A DNA stretch of 44,917 nucleotides from Helicobacteraceae bacterium (GCA_013138865.1 WTBY01000011.1:1-44917), one strand, 5' to 3'; counted from the stretch's first letter, positions 4,370 through 11,703 are shown. Notes: a model not told the origin generated them from the sequence alone. Program-made: numbers and translations.

Positions 4370-4843
4370 ATGAATAAAAAAGAGATACTCAAAAAACGAT
4401 TTGATAAATTAGAAAAACATTATATTGCAATAAAAGAATATAAAGTTTTAATAGATGATTTATTAAAACAAAGTAATATTTATGACCCATTTACTTTTAA
4501 TACTTTAAAACCCGAAAAAAGAGCTATCTTAGATGCTTACCTTAAAAGATTTGCATCAATTCAATACTTCTTAGGATCAAAAATATTTTCACTTCTTTTA
4601 GAAATAGCTGGAATAAATAACACTAAAATGAGTGAAGTTTTATCAAATATTGAAAAAGAGAATATTATAGATAGTCTTGAAAATTGGATAGAACTAAGAG
4701 AAGTGAGAAATGAACTTGAACACGATTATCCCGAAGAATTGCAAGAAGCTTTAGATGATTTAAAATATTGTTTAGATAATTTTGAGCAACTTGAAAGTTA
4801 TTATTTAAATTCATTAAATTTCTTTAAAAAATATAACTCATGA
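4370..4843 (+). CDS. hepT: HepT-like HEPN toxin (RX4HXY RNase)
   Basis: A 157-residue all-helical protein. Residues 113-120 read RNELEHDY, an exact RX4HXY motif: Arg and His form the HEPN RNase centre, and the Tyr two residues after His is the residue that MntA-type antitoxins AMPylate in HepT toxins. The downstream gene is just such a nucleotidyltransferase, overlapping by 4 bases (ATGA at 4840-4843), so the two are translationally coupled with the toxin first. The start ATG lies 4 bases after the RES-like gene, making a three-gene operon. HEPN family membership is well supported; the RNase target, thought to be tRNA in known systems, is inferred. Confidence 0.85.
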   Translation: MNKKEILKKRFDKLEKHYIAIKEYKVLIDDLLKQSNIYDPFTFNTLKPEKRAILDAYLKRFASIQYFLGSKIFSLLLEIAGINNTKMSEVLSNIEKENIIDSLENWIELREVRNELEHDYPEELQEALDDLKYCLDNFEQLESYYLNSLNFFKKYNS

Positions 4844-5136
4844 GACTCTCAAAAAGAATAATAAGTATATTACAAGTCAATATCAAAAAAAGTTTTGGAA
4901 ATGTTAATATATATTTGTTTGGTAGTCGAACAAATGATAATAAAAAAGGTGGAGATATTGATTTAGCTATAGATATAAACGTATCAAAACAAGAGTTTAG
5001 AAAGAAAAAATCTTTATTTTTAGCTATGTTAATGAGAATTGATTTTGACTATAAAATAGATATAGTAAATTTTAATACAAAAGATAAATTATTACATAAT
5101 GAAATACAGCAAAATCACATAAAATTAAACTTGTAA
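4840..5136 (+). CDS. mntA: MntA-like minimal nucleotidyltransferase antitoxin
   Basis: A 98-residue minimal nucleotidyltransferase. It shows the family signature GS (28-29) followed nine residues later by DID (39-41), and a third acidic residue Asp74 in KIDIV, the three metal ligands of pol-beta-type transferases. In MntA/HepT systems this enzyme silences HepT by adding AMP to the Tyr of the RX4HXY motif, which is intact in the neighbour. The start overlaps the hepT stop as ATGA. A PadR-like or DNA-binding regulator is not seen nearby. Base composition is even more AT-rich than the core genes and CGATCG palindromes are absent, in line with acquisition. Confidence 0.88.
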   Translation: MRLSKRIISILQVNIKKSFGNVNIYLFGSRTNDNKKGGDIDLAIDINVSKQEFRKKKSLFLAMLMRIDFDYKIDIVNFNTKDKLLHNEIQQNHIKLNL

Positions 5137-5247
5137 GTAATAGTAAAGATGACAAATGCTAGGATAGAACAAGTTAAAACTACGAAAATACCGAGCTTTT
5201 AAGTGTTGCATAAAGTGTAATTAAATAACAAATAATTAAACCGTTAG

Positions 5248-5571
5248 TTCACTTGTCTTTCAAGTCAGCCGTTAATAAAAAAGAGTAGACAAAATGCAAT
5301 TAGGCACAATCAATTAAATAAACTAATCAACCAACTAAGCAAATACAATGAAAAAGCTTTTGTAGATATAAAATCTAATTTATCTTATGTAGGGACTAAA
5401 AGAAAAAAGTTAAAAGAGACTTTAGAGATATATCAACATTTAAAAAAAAGCAATCTAATAAGAGAGCTAGAAAAATCAATAAATGTATTTGAAGAATTTT
5501 TAATTAAATCACTTTTTATATTACACTTCATTACAATTAATCTATACAATACTCCCAGAGAATTTTTTTAA
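5248..5571 (+). pseudogene. Start-less open frame, remnant of an unknown gene
   Basis: A 107-codon frame between a TAG (5245-5247) and a TAA (5569-5571) contains no ATG, GTG or TTG. The peptide is Lys/Asn-rich and helical (for example KLKETLEIYQHLKKSN, then YNTPREFF at the end) and its last 17 codons lie in the direct repeat shared with 3138-3186. This suggests the 3' part of a gene whose 5' part was lost when the toxin-antitoxin module arrived. No family is recognisable. Confidence 0.45.
5519..5567 (+). repeat. 49-bp imperfect direct repeat, right copy
   Basis: Partner of 3138-3186 with five mismatches in 49 positions. The two copies enclose the RES-like gene and the HepT/MntA pair (about 2.3 kb between them). 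Confidence 0.85.
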
Positions 5572-5636
5572 TTCTAAAATATTTAAATAAAGAAGAGTTA
5601 TTTGACTTGTTCAGATATCTCAATATTTATTTTATG

Positions 5637-5642
5637 TATAAT
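5637..5642 (+). promoter_or_regulatory. -10 box of the six-gene operon
   Basis: TATAAT lies 29 bases before the PqqD-like start ATG at 5671, with an AAGGA ribosome site at 5660-5664. No -35 box is at normal spacing, as is usual for vegetative promoters in Campylobacterota. A second TATAAT at 5653-5658 is too close to the start to be preferred. Confidence 0.5.
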
Positions 5643-5670
5643 TAGAACTACTTATAATTAAGGATGACAT

Positions 5671-5910
5671 ATGCAACAAGCAACACAACTACTTTTAGAT
5701 GAAAACAACATAGCATTTCACCCAATATGGGGAAATAGCTATCAAGTTAATGATATCGCTAAAGATATTTTAACACTAGTTAAACAAGACAAAACAAAAG
5801 ATGAAATTTTAGAGCAACTTTCAGCTGAATATGAGATCTCAAAAGAAGAGCTTTTTATAGACTTAGGTGACTTTTTCTCTAAACTTAAGATCTACGGTTT
5901 AGTCTCTTGA
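5671..5910 (+). CDS. PqqD-like RRE (peptide-chaperone type) protein
   Basis: A 79-residue protein with the winged-helix PqqD fold pattern: a short N-terminal strand pair (IAFHPIWGNSYQVND), then a helix (AKDILTLVKQ), a DKTKDEILEQLSAEYEIS helix-turn and a C-terminal helix ending in KIYGLV. PqqD-like domains act as RiPP recognition elements that hold a leader peptide for a tailoring enzyme. Here the stop overlaps the ATP-grasp start by 4 bases, so the pair probably work together, the ATP-grasp protein being the likely enzyme. No precursor-peptide gene is visible in the 100 bases upstream or in any gap of the operon, so the client could be encoded elsewhere, or the domain could bind something else. 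Confidence 0.75.
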   Translation: MQQATQLLLDENNIAFHPIWGNSYQVNDIAKDILTLVKQDKTKDEILEQLSAEYEISKEELFIDLGDFFSKLKIYGLVS

Positions 5911-6917
5911 AAATAGCAATAAGTGGGTTAAATAATACTGACAACCCAGCTCCAGGTATACCCGTTGCAAAAAGTTTAAAAGATAAGAACACACTTATAG
6001 GTTTTAGTTACGATCCAAATGAGCCGGGTAACTTTCAAAACATAGTTGAGAAAACTTATCTTATGCCTTATCCATCATTAGGTTTTGATGAACTCTCTTC
6101 ACGACTAAAGAAGATCAAAGAAGATCAAAATATTGAAGCGATAATACCTAACCTTGATGCTGAACTTCCTCTTTATATAAAATACCAAAAAGAGATCGAA
6201 GATATGGGTATTGCTCTTTGTCTTCCTTCCGAAGAAAACTTTGAATTAAGAAACAAGAATAGACTTGACAAGCTCTCAACTGAACTAAATACAACATACC
6301 CTACTACACATGAAGTCAATAGCCTAATAGAGCTTGAGAGAATATGTTTAAATAGTAACTTTCCTATAATGATAAAAGGAAGTTACTATAAAGCTTACAT
6401 GGTTCATAACTTAGCAGGTGCGATCGAGGCATTCAACTCTATCTCATTAGAGTGGGGTTTTCCTATTTTAGTTCAAAATGTTGTAAGCGGTGAAGAGGTA
6501 AATCTTGTAGGTGTTGGCGACGGAGTTGAACTTAAAGGTGCAGTTGCGATCAAGAAACTTACCACTACTGACATAGGTAAAATTTGGAGTGGTTTAACTA
6601 TTCAAAACGAGAAGCTAATGGAAATAGCACAAAAATTTGTTAAACAGACAGGTTGGAGAGGCCCATTTGAATTAGAATGTATAGTGAACATGAATAATGT
6701 TTATATGATCGAGATTAACCCTCGTTTTCCAGCATGGGTATATTTTGCTACTGAAGTAGGTGTTAATTTACCTCAAATGGTAGTAGATATTATGCAAAAA
6801 AAAGAGATTACACCGCAGCTAGAGTACCCGCTAAACAAGCTATATGTCCGTTTTGTTGATGAATTAGTAACTGATTTTAATGACTTTACAAAACTATTTT
6901 CTACAAAAGAACTTTAA
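5907..6917 (+). CDS. ATP-grasp ligase (carboxylate-amine ligase type)
   Basis: A 336-residue soluble protein. The N-terminal 110 residues form a Rossmann-like pre-grasp domain starting KIAISGLNN. The ATP-grasp domain follows, with the nucleotide Lys157 in IMIKGSYYKAY, the adenine/hinge region around LVQNVVSGEEV (188-198), and metal-binding FELE (254-257) and EINPRF (269-274). These enzymes activate a carboxylate as acyl phosphate and join it to an amine. The start overlaps the PqqD-like stop by 4 bases (start codon TTG at 5907). The next gene, a PLP decarboxylase, starts 9 bases after the stop behind AAAGGTAAATT. Substrate is unknown; an amino acid or peptide is likely from the neighbours. 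Confidence 0.85.
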   Translation: MKIAISGLNNTDNPAPGIPVAKSLKDKNTLIGFSYDPNEPGNFQNIVEKTYLMPYPSLGFDELSSRLKKIKEDQNIEAIIPNLDAELPLYIKYQKEIEDMGIALCLPSEENFELRNKNRLDKLSTELNTTYPTTHEVNSLIELERICLNSNFPIMIKGSYYKAYMVHNLAGAIEAFNSISLEWGFPILVQNVVSGEEVNLVGVGDGVELKGAVAIKKLTTTDIGKIWSGLTIQNEKLMEIAQKFVKQTGWRGPFELECIVNMNNVYMIEINPRFPAWVYFATEVGVNLPQMVVDIMQKKEITPQLEYPLNKLYVRFVDELVTDFNDFTKLFSTKEL

Positions 6918-6926
6918 AGGTAAATT

Positions 6927-8255
6927 ATGAGTAAAAAAATATACCAAAAACCAACAATTAACTACATCAACTTTGCAATGGCTTCAAAATATGGTTCTCC
7001 TCTACAAACACAAAAAGTTCGTACTGAGATCGATGGTGTTCAAATAAGTGAACTAACTGAAAAATTTGGTTCACCTATTTTTGTATTTTCTGAAAAAACT
7101 ATTGAAGAGAAATACCATGCACTTCACAATGCTTTTAGCTCACGCTACAATGATGTTGAGTTCTCATGGAGTTACAAAACAAACTATCTTAATGAAATAT
7201 GTAAAATCTTTCACAAACTTGGCTCCACTGCTGAAGTTGTAAGTGAATTTGAATACCAAAAAGCTCGTGCAAATGGTGTTGAAGGTAAAGACATTATTTT
7301 TAATGGTCCTTATAAGCCAAAAGCTGATCTTAAAATTGCTGTTCAAGAGGGTGCAAAAATTCATGTTGACAACCTTTTTGAACTTAATGACTTAGAAGAG
7401 ATTGCAGATGAGCTAAATGTAAAAATACCAGTTGCGATCAGAATAAACATGGATACAGGTGTATACCCTGCATGGAGCCGTTTTGGTTTTAACTTTGAGA
7501 GCGGTGAAGCGTATGACGCTATTAAGAGAATGTATGATGGAGGAAAAGTTTACCTTGTTGGTCTTCACTCACATATAGGTACATTTATGCTTGATGCTAA
7601 CCCTTACTACATGGCTACAAAAGCAATTATGCACCTAAAAGCACAAGTTGAAAATGATTTTAACGCTGAGATCGCTTACATAGATCTAGGTGGCGGTTTT
7701 GCTTCAAAAAGTAATTTAAAAGGGATCTATCAGTCTGCTGATGTGATCGTTCCAACACCTGATGCATACGCAGAAGCTATCACAAACGCTATATATGAGT
7801 TCAACAAGAGTGAAAAACTACCTAAGTTATACCTTGAAACTGGTCGTCACTTAATTGATGAAGCTGGCTTTTTATTAACATCAGTTTGGGGATATAAGCG
7901 TTTTGGTGATGGTAAAAAAGGCTATATTTTAGATGCTGGTGTAAATGTACTTTATACTTCTACGTGGTACAACTTTAACATTGAGTTAGACAAACGCTAT
8001 GAAGGTGAGAATGAGCCTTCAATGTTAAATGGTCCACTATGTATGAATATCGATATAATAGAAGAGCATATTATGTTGCCACCACTTGATCGTGGATCTG
8101 TTATCACAATTTCACCTGTTGGAGCATATAACTATACACAAGCTATGCAGTTCATTCGTTATAAACCAGCCGTTGTTTTAATAGACAAAGATTCAAATGC
8201 AAAACTAATAAAAGAGGTTGATGACCTTTCAACTGTAAACCATAAAGAGAGCTAA
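6927..8255 (+). CDS. PLP-dependent decarboxylase of the LysA/ornithine-type fold III family
   Basis: A 442-residue protein with the alanine-racemase-like barrel then a beta domain. The Schiff-base lysine is Lys84 in WSYKTN; HSHIG is at 214-218, the phosphate-binding GGG at 255-257, ETGR at 304-307 (LysA has EPGR) and VGAYNY at 398-403. The active-site stretch GPLCMNID (369-376) keeps the Cys but has Met-Asn where diaminopimelate decarboxylase has Glu-Ser, so the substrate side-chain recognition probably differs and this is unlikely to be the housekeeping lysA. It would make an amine from an amino acid, which the ATP-grasp neighbour could attach, or the decarboxylation could act on the ligated product. 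The first 25 residues extend beyond the usual family start. It could also be a racemase-like relative. Confidence 0.8.
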   Translation: MSKKIYQKPTINYINFAMASKYGSPLQTQKVRTEIDGVQISELTEKFGSPIFVFSEKTIEEKYHALHNAFSSRYNDVEFSWSYKTNYLNEICKIFHKLGSTAEVVSEFEYQKARANGVEGKDIIFNGPYKPKADLKIAVQEGAKIHVDNLFELNDLEEIADELNVKIPVAIRINMDTGVYPAWSRFGFNFESGEAYDAIKRMYDGGKVYLVGLHSHIGTFMLDANPYYMATKAIMHLKAQVENDFNAEIAYIDLGGGFASKSNLKGIYQSADVIVPTPDAYAEAITNAIYEFNKSEKLPKLYLETGRHLIDEAGFLLTSVWGYKRFGDGKKGYILDAGVNVLYTSTWYNFNIELDKRYEGENEPSMLNGPLCMNIDIIEEHIMLPPLDRGSVITISPVGAYNYTQAMQFIRYKPAVVLIDKDSNAKLIKEVDDLSTVNHKES

Positions 8256-8264
8256 ATAAAACTT

Positions 8265-10277
8265 ATGATAAAAAACCTACTAAAACCGTATAGTTCGATC
8301 CTATTTTTAAACAGTCCTCAAGCAGGAGCGTTAATTTTAATGATCACACTTATAAACCCATCAGTTGCTTTTAGTGGCATGTTAGCGGTAGGTTTTACGA
8401 TAGGCTTTGCAAAACTTTTAGGAATGAGTGAAGAGTTTTTAACACAAGGTTTTTACATATACAACTCTCTTTTAGTTGGTATGGGCATAGGTTTTATATT
8501 TATGCCATCACTTACAAGTGTAGCTTTGATTGCATTTTCAGCTTCATTTACATTTGCACTATCTTTTATGTTAAATAGACTATTTGCTACTTATACAATA
8601 CCTATTTTATCTCTTCCTTTTTCGATCGTTACTATGTTTGTGTACTTAGCTTCACTAAAATACTCGGCACTACTTTCAACTTTAGTAAATAACTCTAGTA
8701 TGTATGATATAGCACTGCCTATAATGCTAAGCTCTTTTTTTAAATCATTTGGGACTATATTCTTTTTACCAAATAATATAGCAGGAATTTTACTTCTTAG
8801 TGTAGTTCTATACTTTTCACGTATTATTTTTATTATGGCAGTAGTTGGTTTTTACTTTGGAATTTTAATACATAGTTTTTTCATAGGATCACTAACTCAA
8901 GCACTATACGATCCTTATGCATTTAACTATATATTAGTTGCGATCGCAATGTGTGGGATCTTCTTACTTCCAACTATACGAAACTTTATTTTGGCTCTGA
9001 TCGCGGTTGCAATAAGTGTTATATTAACAGATGCGATCGCAATTTTATTTAACTACTATGCTATTCCTGTTTTTACTCTTCCATTTAATATAACAGTTAT
9101 TACTTTTATTTTTATACTATCTGCTACGTACTACAAAGAGTTTAACTACTCGATCAAAGCTTCGCCTGAAAAATCACTCTCTAACTATTTAAGTACTATT
9201 TTTAGATTTGGTGAAATTCCTATTAAAATAGAGTTGCCTTTTTCAGGTGAGTGGAGTGTATACCAAGCATTTAACGATAAATGGACTCACAAGGGAGAGT
9301 ATAAATTTGCTTATGACTTTGTCAAAAGAGAGGGTGGCAAAACTTTTCAAAATGAAGGAGTTCATTTAAATGATTACTACTCTTTTGGTGAGCCAATTTT
9401 AGCACCTGTAAGTGGTTACATTGTTGAAACTAAAGATGACTTAATAGATAATTGCATAGGCGATGTAGACCGAGTAAACAACTGGGGTAACTACATAATT
9501 ATAAGAAGTGACGAGGGTTTCTTTGTAGAAATTAGTCACCTTTTACAGTACTCTATAAGTGTTAAAACAGGTGATTATATTACACTAAATACAATTATTG
9601 CAATGTGTGGAAATAGTGGTTACTCTCCTGAGCCACATATACATATACAAGTGCAAGAATTAGCTATTTTAGGTGCATTTACAAAAGAGTTTTGCTTTAG
9701 AAGCTATTTAGAAAATAGTACGCTTCACTTTAATGGACTACCTAAAAGAGATGAATATATAAACTCTACATTAAAAGATCCAACTATAAACTCTCGTCTT
9801 ACTTTTATACTAGATGATACTTTTGAGTACGAACTTTTTGAAAATAGCAATTTTATAAAAAATATCTCATTTAAAATTAAAATGGACAACAACTCAGAGT
9901 TTTATTTTGAAGATGAAGCAAAGAATAGACTCTATTTTTTCAATGATGCAAGTGAGTTTTATTTTTATAACTATGTTGGAGAATCTTCTCACCTAAAAGC
10001 ACTATTTATTTTGCTACCTAGACTACCTTTTATACATGCTATAAACCTTAAGTATAATGATTTTCTACCTGTTTACTTAATTAAAAGCAAAGCACAAACT
10101 ATTGTGATTGAACTACTGAGTAGTCTAAATAAAAAATATTACAAACTTATAAAAAGCTATAGCTATAACCAAAATAAGATTAGTAGTGATTATGGAAAGG
10201 TAGAACTTTCTCAACTACAAAAAGGCTTCGAGATTATTAAATACGAAAATATAGAACTAAAAAGGATCAATCCATGA
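8265..10277 (+). CDS. Urea-transporter-like membrane domain fused to M23 peptidase domain
   Basis: A 670-residue fusion. Residues 10-295 hold about ten membrane helices with urea-transporter-type repeats: NSPQAG (16-21), GFYIYNSLLVG (62-72) and LPFS (117-120) in the first half; LPNNIAG (168-174) and TLPFN (271-275) in the second. After a short linker, residues about 320-470 are a LytM/M23-like domain: HKGEYKFAYDF (342-352), a central EISHLL with His425, and PEPHIHIQ with His458 and His460, so a zinc site is plausible. Residues 470-670 are unassigned. The topology would place the peptidase-like part in the periplasm. It may be a channel for a small polar product with a cell-wall or peptide-cutting partner. 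The stop overlaps the next start (ATGA). Confidence 0.82.
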   Translation: MIKNLLKPYSSILFLNSPQAGALILMITLINPSVAFSGMLAVGFTIGFAKLLGMSEEFLTQGFYIYNSLLVGMGIGFIFMPSLTSVALIAFSASFTFALSFMLNRLFATYTIPILSLPFSIVTMFVYLASLKYSALLSTLVNNSSMYDIALPIMLSSFFKSFGTIFFLPNNIAGILLLSVVLYFSRIIFIMAVVGFYFGILIHSFFIGSLTQALYDPYAFNYILVAIAMCGIFLLPTIRNFILALIAVAISVILTDAIAILFNYYAIPVFTLPFNITVITFIFILSATYYKEFNYSIKASPEKSLSNYLSTIFRFGEIPIKIELPFSGEWSVYQAFNDKWTHKGEYKFAYDFVKREGGKTFQNEGVHLNDYYSFGEPILAPVSGYIVETKDDLIDNCIGDVDRVNNWGNYIIIRSDEGFFVEISHLLQYSISVKTGDYITLNTIIAMCGNSGYSPEPHIHIQVQELAILGAFTKEFCFRSYLENSTLHFNGLPKRDEYINSTLKDPTINSRLTFILDDTFEYELFENSNFIKNISFKIKMDNNSEFYFEDEAKNRLYFFNDASEFYFYNYVGESSHLKALFILLPRLPFIHAINLKYNDFLPVYLIKSKAQTIVIELLSSLNKKYYKLIKSYSYNQNKISSDYGKVELSQLQKGFEIIKYENIELKRINP

Positions 10278-10864
10278 AAGTAGTACTACTTCTTCTATTT
10301 TACATAAATTTTTTGTACTCAAGTGATAGTATAAAAGAGCTTTATGTAAAGTCATATAATTATGAAAGAGTCGGAAACTATAATGAAGCTATAAAAGTCC
10401 TTGTACCTCTATATAAGAAGTACCCAAAAGGTTATACACTAAACCTACGTTTTGGGTGGTTGTTTTACCTAAATAAAAACTATAATAATGCAACAACATA
10501 CTATAAAAATGCTTCATTAGTAGCACCTTATGCACTAAATCCTAGAGTAGGATTAGCTCAAGTATATTTAGCAAAAGGAGACTATAACAAATCTGAAATT
10601 ATATGTAATGAAATTATTAAAATTGATTACTATAACCACTATGCAAATCTTTGTACGATCAGCTCTTTGATCAGACAACATAAGTATGAGATAGCAGCAC
10701 AAATGGCGCAAAAAATGCTCACTCTATATCCAACAAATATTGAGTTCTTACAACAGCTATATGTTATATATAAAGCAACAAGTAGTAAGTACATAAAAGA
10801 TCTAGAAAATCAAATTTTAACTCTAGACCCAAACAATGTTTTAATTAATACAAAAGGAAAATAA
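10274..10864 (+). CDS. Secreted TPR protein
   Basis: A 196-residue protein with an N-terminal signal sequence (MKVVLLLLFYINFLYSSDS, likely cut near residue 16) and about four tetratricopeptide-like repeats, for example YNYERVGNYNEAIKVLVPLY, YLNKNYNNATTYYKNASLV and YLAKGDYNKSEIICNEII. It should sit in the periplasm as a protein-protein adaptor. It overlaps the upstream fusion gene by 4 bases and the downstream barrel gene by 1 base, so it is part of the same translational chain and could link the M23-type domain to the outer-membrane protein. Confidence 0.85.
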   Translation: MKVVLLLLFYINFLYSSDSIKELYVKSYNYERVGNYNEAIKVLVPLYKKYPKGYTLNLRFGWLFYLNKNYNNATTYYKNASLVAPYALNPRVGLAQVYLAKGDYNKSEIICNEIIKIDYYNHYANLCTISSLIRQHKYEIAAQMAQKMLTLYPTNIEFLQQLYVIYKATSSKYIKDLENQILTLDPNNVLINTKGK

Positions 10865-11703
10865 TGTTAAAAAAACTTTCACTAGTTTCATTACTGACAG
10901 CTTCACTATTAGCTGATATTACAACGGTAGTTCCATACGCTGGTCTATTAAACTACTCGTCTGAGTCAATTAGAGACAATGGTTATTTTAGTGGACTATA
11001 TGCAAGCAATGCTTCTTGGACTAATAAATTTGAGATAGGTGCAGAATATACTACATTTCAATATAAGAACAGAGCTATAACACCTCTAGTTCAAAGAGAT
11101 TTTACCATAGCATATACTCGCTATTTCACTGAAAAGTATAACCTAAAAGGTGCTTATCATCTAATTAGTTCAAGTGATGATGCTACAGACGGTGGAAATA
11201 TTTATTTACTTAATTTCACTACAAACCCAAGCAAAAAACTAGATATTTCACTTGAAGCTGCATATAGTAGCTATAAAGATAGTTTCAATGTACTTCAAGG
11301 TAGAACATCAGTTGGAAGAGTTTTTGGTGACTATAACTCTATGCTAGGAAGCTTTCATGTTCAAGGTGCATATAAATATATAAAACCTTCTACTGCAACT
11401 ATAAATAATCTTAAGTCATCTTATGATAGTTTTCACATGGAAGTAATTAACTATAATGGAGACTTCACAACAACACTATCAACATGGACCGGTTCAGAAG
11501 TTTACGCAGTTACAAATGGTGGTTTTTCAGTTGATAATTTAGCTGATGAGAAAAAAGGTGCCGTAGCATTAGCCGTAAGATATGCTTTCACACCAGCTAT
11601 GGGACTAACTTTAAATGGGAAATTGTTAAATATGCGAGAAGCAGGCGCAACTGTTGACTCTTCATCAAGTGTTCTTGGTGCTACATTCGATTACTCTTAC
11701 TAA
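10864..11703 (+). CDS. Outer-membrane beta-barrel protein, last gene of the operon
   Basis: A 279-residue protein with a signal peptide (MLKKLSLVSLLTASLLA, cut before DITTV), alternating polar/hydrophobic strands throughout (such as KFEIGAEYTTFQYKN, GNIYLLNFTTNP, KLDISLEAAYSSY) and a C-terminal strand ending in aromatic Tyr (VLGATFDYSY), the signal for insertion by the BAM machine. The start ATG at 10864 shares a base with the TPR stop. In TPR-barrel pairs elsewhere the barrel is often an exporter or channel for the product of the upstream genes. Family is not recognised beyond the barrel features. It faces a reverse gene only 3 bases away, with no obvious terminator in the gap. Confidence 0.8.
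   Translation: MLKKLSLVSLLTASLLADITTVVPYAGLLNYSSESIRDNGYFSGLYASNASWTNKFEIGAEYTTFQYKNRAITPLVQRDFTIAYTRYFTEKYNLKGAYHLISSSDDATDGGNIYLLNFTTNPSKKLDISLEAAYSSYKDSFNVLQGRTSVGRVFGDYNSMLGSFHVQGAYKYIKPSTATINNLKSSYDSFHMEVINYNGDFTTTLSTWTGSEVYAVTNGGFSVDNLADEKKGAVALAVRYAFTPAMGLTLNGKLLNMREAGATVDSSSSVLGATFDYSY

Follow-up and report, generated by a model that had tools for sequence, protein, structure and literature searches.

In the LysW/LysX pathways an ATP-grasp enzyme loads a small protein, and the product is freed by a metallopeptidase. The butirosin pathway likewise has an ATP-grasp ligase, BtrJ. Its LysA-like decarboxylase BtrK acts on a carried amino acid (glutamate on an 87-aa protein), and BtrI serves as a separate carrier protein (PMC7857480). 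BtrK falls with FigC, SbnH, AcsE and MccE in a clade of enzymes for specialised metabolism, not polyamines, and Met355 of N-citrylornithine decarboxylase is predicted to stack on the aliphatic part of its acylated substrate (PMC7857480). In lasso peptide precursors, a YxxPxL motif occupies positions -17 to -12 and a glycine is the first residue of the core (PMC10368454). The consensus bound by most discrete lasso RREs is [Y/W]xxPx[L/V/I/A/F/Y]; in LppB, the leader is hydrogen-bonded by N33 and D70 (through its backbone at Pro and the side chain of its Tyr), and both leader pockets are lined by F74 (PMC13381572).

Here we describe a six-gene operon to which these are among the closest known systems. 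It lies in a 44,917-nucleotide window (the whole stretch of Helicobacteraceae DNA that was analysed), in which six open reading frames on the plus strand fill positions 5671-11703. The junctions between them (-4, +9, +9, -4 and -1) agree with an earlier sequence-only reading of six overlapping or nearly touching genes that all run in one direction. Protein families were assigned with Pfam and NCBIfam. The operon and its main features are as follows.

5671 to 5910, plus strand: gene A, a discrete PqqD-like/RRE protein of 79 aa (PF05402, E 3.9e-11)
5907 to 6917, plus strand: gene B, an ATP-grasp ligase of 336 aa with a TTG start (PF15632, E 6.4e-8)
6927 to 8255, plus strand: gene C, an alanine-racemase-fold PLP decarboxylase of 442 aa (closest to 7kh2, E 8e-56)
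6942 to 6959, plus strand: residues 6-11 of C, YQKPTI, an RRE-binding-type leader motif (in 77/78 homologues)
6987 to 6995, plus strand: residues 21-23 of C, K-Y-G, a Lys-x-Gly element (K21 in 100% and G23 in 98% of 64 homologues)
8265 to 10277, plus strand: gene D, a urea-transporter-fold channel with an M23 domain and a C-terminal beta domain (AlphaFold, Foldseek)
9210 to 9716, plus strand: the M23 domain of D (residues 316-484), predicted to be cytoplasmic (conserved H342, D351, H425, H458 and H460)
10274 to 10864, plus strand: gene E, a TPR protein of 196 aa with a signal peptide (TPR_19, E 1.1e-10)
10864 to 11703, plus strand: gene F, an OmpG-like outer-membrane barrel of 14 strands with a signal peptide (model pLDDT 93.2)

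Genes A and B share a 4-base overlap, and the TTG start of B is backed by homologues whose N-terminus reads MKIAISG. The Pfam family of C is Orn/DAP/Arg decarboxylase, F had no match in Pfam or NCBIfam, and none of the six operon proteins (0/6) matched the PADLOC library of anti-phage defence systems. Directly upstream, at window positions 4370-5136, lie two overlapping genes, one for a small helical protein and the other for a nucleotidyltransferase of the Polbeta type (E 6e-10), which together look like a HEPN/MNT pair. Between this pair and the operon, at positions 5300-5570, there is a reading frame that lacks a start codon, possibly a gene remnant.

The sequence-only reading had taken the six genes to act as one unit, and had named as findings against it that homologues never co-occur elsewhere or that the cluster matches a characterised pathway. 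Both were looked for, and neither was found. Gene B was present in 16/298 Campylobacterota genomes searched (10/59 genera), and the regions around 14 of these genes showed the same neighbours in nearly all cases. Scanning bacterial genomes with an alignment of gene B yielded 80 loci, from Campylobacterota, Aquificota (including Desulfurobacteriaceae), Bdellovibrionota, Gammaproteobacteria (among them Thiomargarita and Francisella sp.), Verrucomicrobiota and Planctomycetota. Counting only loci whose contig leaves enough flanking sequence, C followed B in 66/68, D was present in 55/61, and E and F in 39/46 each, with C, D, E and F all found together in 35/46. The 4-base A/B overlap recurred in 34 loci, and the order of E and F is swapped among lineages. 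Searches that started from D gave the same picture: the UT-M23 fusion occurred in 34/398 Pseudomonadota and 2/145 Verrucomicrobiota genomes, and in the 16 regions fetched from them D adjoined B and usually also A, C, E and F. In three Aquificota genomes A-B stand apart, with C and D present elsewhere in the genome, and the C proteins there keep YEKPxI; since A-B, C and D are kept even where they are unlinked, the genes are tied by function and not just by position. We conclude that the six-gene set is a real cassette, conserved in at least six phyla, and that its arrangement is not due to chance.

Other features of these loci were noted along the way. The Francisella B gene is 64% identical to that of the window, which points to horizontal transfer, and a plasmid search with gene B returned only a distant Streptomyces ATP-grasp protein. 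In loci L152 and L153 the cassette is flanked by two copies each of F, the barrel gene, and E, the TPR gene. For locus L019 (genome G058, 6969-11321), the mechanical ORF list gave a 1450-aa minus-strand frame across the B-C-D stretch, probably an overlapping reading frame that masks these genes. As for the claim that no named pathway has this set, it was borne out, since literature searches for the gene set found no published description.

Gene A is RRE-like, as proposed from the sequence, and most similar to lasso-type RREs. In addition to PF05402, its family profile matched TfuB1 (E 8.6e-10), TbiB1 (E 4.5e-9) and PbaB1 (E 1e-3), and it resembles the RREs of the lasso and LPP systems (TfuB1, TbiB1, PbaB1, LppB) in being discrete, in its similar size and in its pocket. 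Residues N27, D64 and F68 of A have the same spacing (37 and 4) as N33, D70 and F74 of LppB; among 87 sequences, N27 is kept in 79, D64 in 81 and F68 in 83. The profile aligned gap-free to PbaB1, with the three positions falling on G42, Q79 and F83. As N27/D64/F68 are common among PqqD proteins generally, they show an intact pocket and not a specific client.

A candidate client is found within the operon itself. The decarboxylase C has an N-terminal tail of about 30 residues ahead of its catalytic domain, which is missing from the genome's own LysA. In this tail, 77/78 C homologues carry [Y/W]xxPx[I/L/M] (68 with Tyr, 9 with Trp), 70/78 have a glycine exactly 17 residues past the aromatic residue of the motif, and 71/78 a lysine at position -2; most of those without the exact spacing are one residue shorter and retain Lys-x-Gly. 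With the Tyr as -17, Gly23 sits at the position of lasso Gly+1. The cassette thus shares with lasso and LPP systems both [Y/W]xxPx[L/I] and the glycine 17 residues on, but here the motif is on an enzyme, not on a precursor, and there is no core peptide. Elsewhere in the cassette the N-terminal motif occurred in 1/83 D and 1/70 F proteins; no A, B or E protein carried it close to its N-terminus, and the genome's own LysA does not have it. Nonsynonymous relative to synonymous differences came to 1.05 in the tail versus 0.47 in the domain of C (14 pairs); on this sequence evidence the tail is protein-coding and under selection at the protein level.

The motif and the pocket also vary together to some extent. 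Among loci in which both genes were read, Gly or Ser takes the place of D64 in A only when the C motif has Trp or no aromatic residue (Fisher p 0.0016, a value uncorrected for phylogeny, from sequences that are not independent, with some contigs counted twice and with fragmentary C genes at two of the loci scored as non-Tyr). One locus with Glu in place of D64 retains Tyr, and D64 is kept in six of the nine Trp-type loci. In some Gammaproteobacteria gene A takes the form of a TetR-PqqD fusion, and the C motif there is of the Trp type. In L142 (3974-4792) and L143 (3944-4735), such fusions of an RRE-type domain to a DNA-binding domain replace gene A, which suggests a regulatory role and counts against the docking of A on C.

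The absence of a visible precursor gene, noted in the sequence-only reading, was confirmed: there was no precursor-like small ORF at window positions 5137-5670, and a hunt upstream and downstream of the operon found nothing. A search of the host's own genome for K-K-x-Y-x-K-P returned C and two further matches, versus three for the backward control, which is chance level. A separate precursor peptide beside the operon was therefore rejected. The suggestion drawn from this absence, that the RRE client would be encoded elsewhere or be non-peptidic, is not supported: the tail of C itself bears the canonical RRE-binding motif. The classical arrangement, with a true precursor elsewhere in the genome and the C motif as an incidental feature or a mimic, would suit the closeness of A to lasso-type RREs; it is at odds with these searches and with a motif that is near-invariant across six phyla, and we consider it very unlikely. 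Of the features that mark a RiPP cluster, the cassette has an RRE/PqqD domain and a leader motif on a putative client (C) and shows no candidate for a separate precursor next to the operon, and the B2 protease and asparagine-synthetase-like cyclase of lasso systems are absent among the six genes. A thus probably grips a tag built into C and not a separate precursor peptide.

The tail could alternatively be a covalent carrier arm, presented by A and loaded by B with an amino acid or acyl group, with C decarboxylating the attached cargo and the cytoplasmic M23 domain of D freeing it for export. Such a scheme gives every gene a role, and the invariant Lys21 offers a candidate loading site; Lys-x-Gly is as conserved as the RRE motif, although a tag used solely for docking could do without it. 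A precedent exists in the FigC clade, where BtrK works on a protein-bound substrate (PMC7857480). In butirosin biosynthesis, as with B and C, an ATP-grasp enzyme is paired with a LysA-like decarboxylase, but the carrier is separate, whereas the candidate here is C's own tail, and C shows only ordinary fold similarity to BtrK (E 3e-26). The LysW/LysX pathways offer an analogy only, as a LysW-like protein was not found here. We saw no sign of loading chemistry, Lys-x-Gly may equally touch B or C non-covalently, and a mere 12 or so residues separate the tail from the folded domain. On balance a carrier arm seems unlikely. It is equally doubtful that the cassette represents a pathway class with a RiPP leader and its modification site (Lys21) placed within a metabolic enzyme, whose tail the RRE would present to an ATP-grasp ligase; such an enzyme would decarboxylate its own cargo, to be freed and exported by a channel with a cytoplasmic M23 peptidase.

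Returning to C as a probable docked client, its active site indicates what kind of substrate it may use. The loop GPLCMNID was invariant in 64 homologues, with Cys372-Met373-Asn374 in place of Cys-Glu-Ser. The closest solved relative is the N-citrylornithine decarboxylase 7kh2 (FslC/FigC), which likewise has a methionine after the catalytic cysteine (GPSCMQ). The sequence-only reading had argued from Met373-Asn374 that C is probably not a diaminopimelate decarboxylase, in agreement with our results: C scored 226.3 bits against the LysA model (cut-off 297.9), compared with 518.8 bits for the genome's true LysA on contig C76, and the CMN triplet replaces CES. LysA was thus rejected as an identity for C, and a polyamine decarboxylase was ruled out on score and motif. 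Against the FslC model C reached 228.8 bits, below the curated cut-off of 500. The Cys-Met loop and the closeness of C to the FslC/FigC clade lead us to infer an amino acid substrate with an acylated or amidated distal group, for which the product of B is the simplest candidate. B has an ATP-grasp core with a conserved EINPRF motif and matches PRK12767-type models (to E 6.5e-22); its best matches are to carbamoyl-phosphate-synthase-like models, which do not fix its substrate.

FslC/FigC, of rhizoferrin biosynthesis, is also the closest named relative of C, and shares Cys-Met in the specificity loop. Its pathway pairs the decarboxylase with an NIS synthetase, whereas the cassette has an ATP-grasp ligase instead, and it is without the RRE, UT channel and M23 domain that the cassette holds. 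The relationship could mean that the cassette makes a metallophore, serving in metal uptake or detoxification, with a logic akin to that of decarboxylase-dependent siderophores; clade-2 decarboxylases are often siderophore enzymes (PMC7857480). CusA-type RND genes were found near three cassettes and none farther out, and Cu-ATPase and CDF genes stood beside the cassette in single cases (the loci with one of these three neighbours being L035, L103, L107, L033 and L108). These metal-related neighbours were few and picked by eye, and too few to carry weight; an NIS (IucA/IucC-type) synthetase and a TonB receptor are absent among the six genes. The strong neighbour signal was from two-component regulators: OmpR-type response-regulator genes numbered 34 within three genes of the cassette and 5 farther out, and histidine kinase genes 12 and 2, with a response regulator inside the operon in several Campylobacterota. 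A metallophore is, in our judgement, distinctly unlikely. In Verrucomicrobia the operon is extended by genes for an S74-type surface protein and for a secreted protein roughly 300 aa long (L094 15679-18040, L105 7262-9653, L102 13891-16405), and 8 loci have a related S74 gene; as these surface proteins were not seen in other lineages, they were not counted as part of the core cassette.

The sequence-only reading had the last three genes spanning inner membrane, periplasm and outer membrane as an export or cell-wall route. D matched the Pfam families UT (E 1.7e-61) and Peptidase_M23 (E 7.3e-10), and its AlphaFold model (pLDDT 91.4) shows a UT fold (residues 1-290), the M23 domain (316-484) and a beta domain (485-670). 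Foldseek returned dvUT (3k3g, E 3.6e-15) and M23 enzymes. D shares with dvUT the full UT fold and two LPF motifs, but differs in its gate residues and in the M23 fusion. The gate of urea channels is the pair Gln24/Glu187 (dvUT numbering); D has S11 (Ser, Glu or Ala in the family) and T164 (Thr, Ala or Ser) at these positions, so urea is not an obvious cargo, and a urea-uptake channel was rejected.

UT proteins have both termini inside, which would place the M23 domain in the cytoplasm. Loops on the N-terminal side of D are mostly rich in Lys and Arg, as is the segment leading into M23, whereas those on the opposite side are not, and beyond the UT part the protein has no other hydrophobic helix. 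Cysteines per 100 residues came to 1.15 in the M23 region and 0.65 in the C-terminal domain of D, close to the 0.86 and 0.75 of cytosolic B and C, while mature E has 0.27 and mature F 0.14; the M23 region thus has unpaired, conserved cysteine at a cytosolic frequency. Taken together, topology, charge bias, the lack of a later helix and cysteine content predict that the M23 domain probably faces the cytoplasm. The signal peptides of E and F uphold the periplasmic and outer-membrane part of the earlier claim, and the predicted cytoplasmic M23 domain departs from it. A periplasmic M23 domain that modifies or remodels the cell wall would be in line with the general habit of M23 enzymes, most of which, where characterised, act on peptidoglycan, and with the invariance in 60 homologues of its predicted zinc ligands (H/D/HxH) and catalytic histidine (H342, D351, H425, H458, H460). 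The topological indications oppose it, making a cell-wall role less likely, and we regard it as very unlikely.

The model of F, a 14-stranded barrel, was closest to OmpG (2iwv, E 5e-8, TM 0.66). Porins of the OmpG kind, like UT channels, let molecules pass passively in either direction, so F and the UT part of D might instead take up an amide or a short peptide, to be processed by the cytoplasmic M23 domain and B/C for use as a nutrient or signal. An inside-facing peptidase fits the processing of an incoming molecule, but an ATP-grasp ligase together with a decarboxylase follows a building logic and catabolic enzymes are absent from the cassette, leaving uptake a rather remote prospect.

Our working model is instead of an RRE-organised small-molecule pathway, whose computed basis is the order and conservation of the genes, the folds of their domains, and the motif and pocket. 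As a discrete RRE, A would bind the leader-like tail of C, making C the client and a separate precursor unneeded; motif, pocket and co-variation together render this step highly likely, and it is the best supported new point that the comparisons offer. B would use an amino acid or another carboxylate to form an amide, and A, which is translationally coupled to B, would bring C to it, a step that we consider evenly balanced. Somewhat better placed, given the Cys-Met loop and the clade, is the proposal that C decarboxylates an amino acid already acylated or amidated at its far end, like FslC/FigC and BtrK. At the inner membrane, the M23 peptidase domain at the cytoplasmic mouth of the UT-fold channel D may trim or release the product, which would exit via D, aided by periplasmic E and the outer-membrane porin F; this last part is tentative, and falls a little short of even chances. 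The four steps as a whole may as readily prove right as wrong.

The cassette is a real, widespread and apparently undescribed unit, with a predicted role in biosynthesis and transport. Its carriers include vent chemolithotrophs, freshwater Verrucomicrobia and predatory bacteria, and the spread over at least six phyla suggests that the product is probably of wide use. The UT-M23 fusion also makes one ask why a urea-type channel should have a peptidase at its inner mouth. RREs are usually taken to signal a nearby precursor peptide; if the client of an RRE can be a tag on an enzyme, the rules used in RiPP mining would overlook pathways of this type, and the recognition of leaders would be a general docking code.
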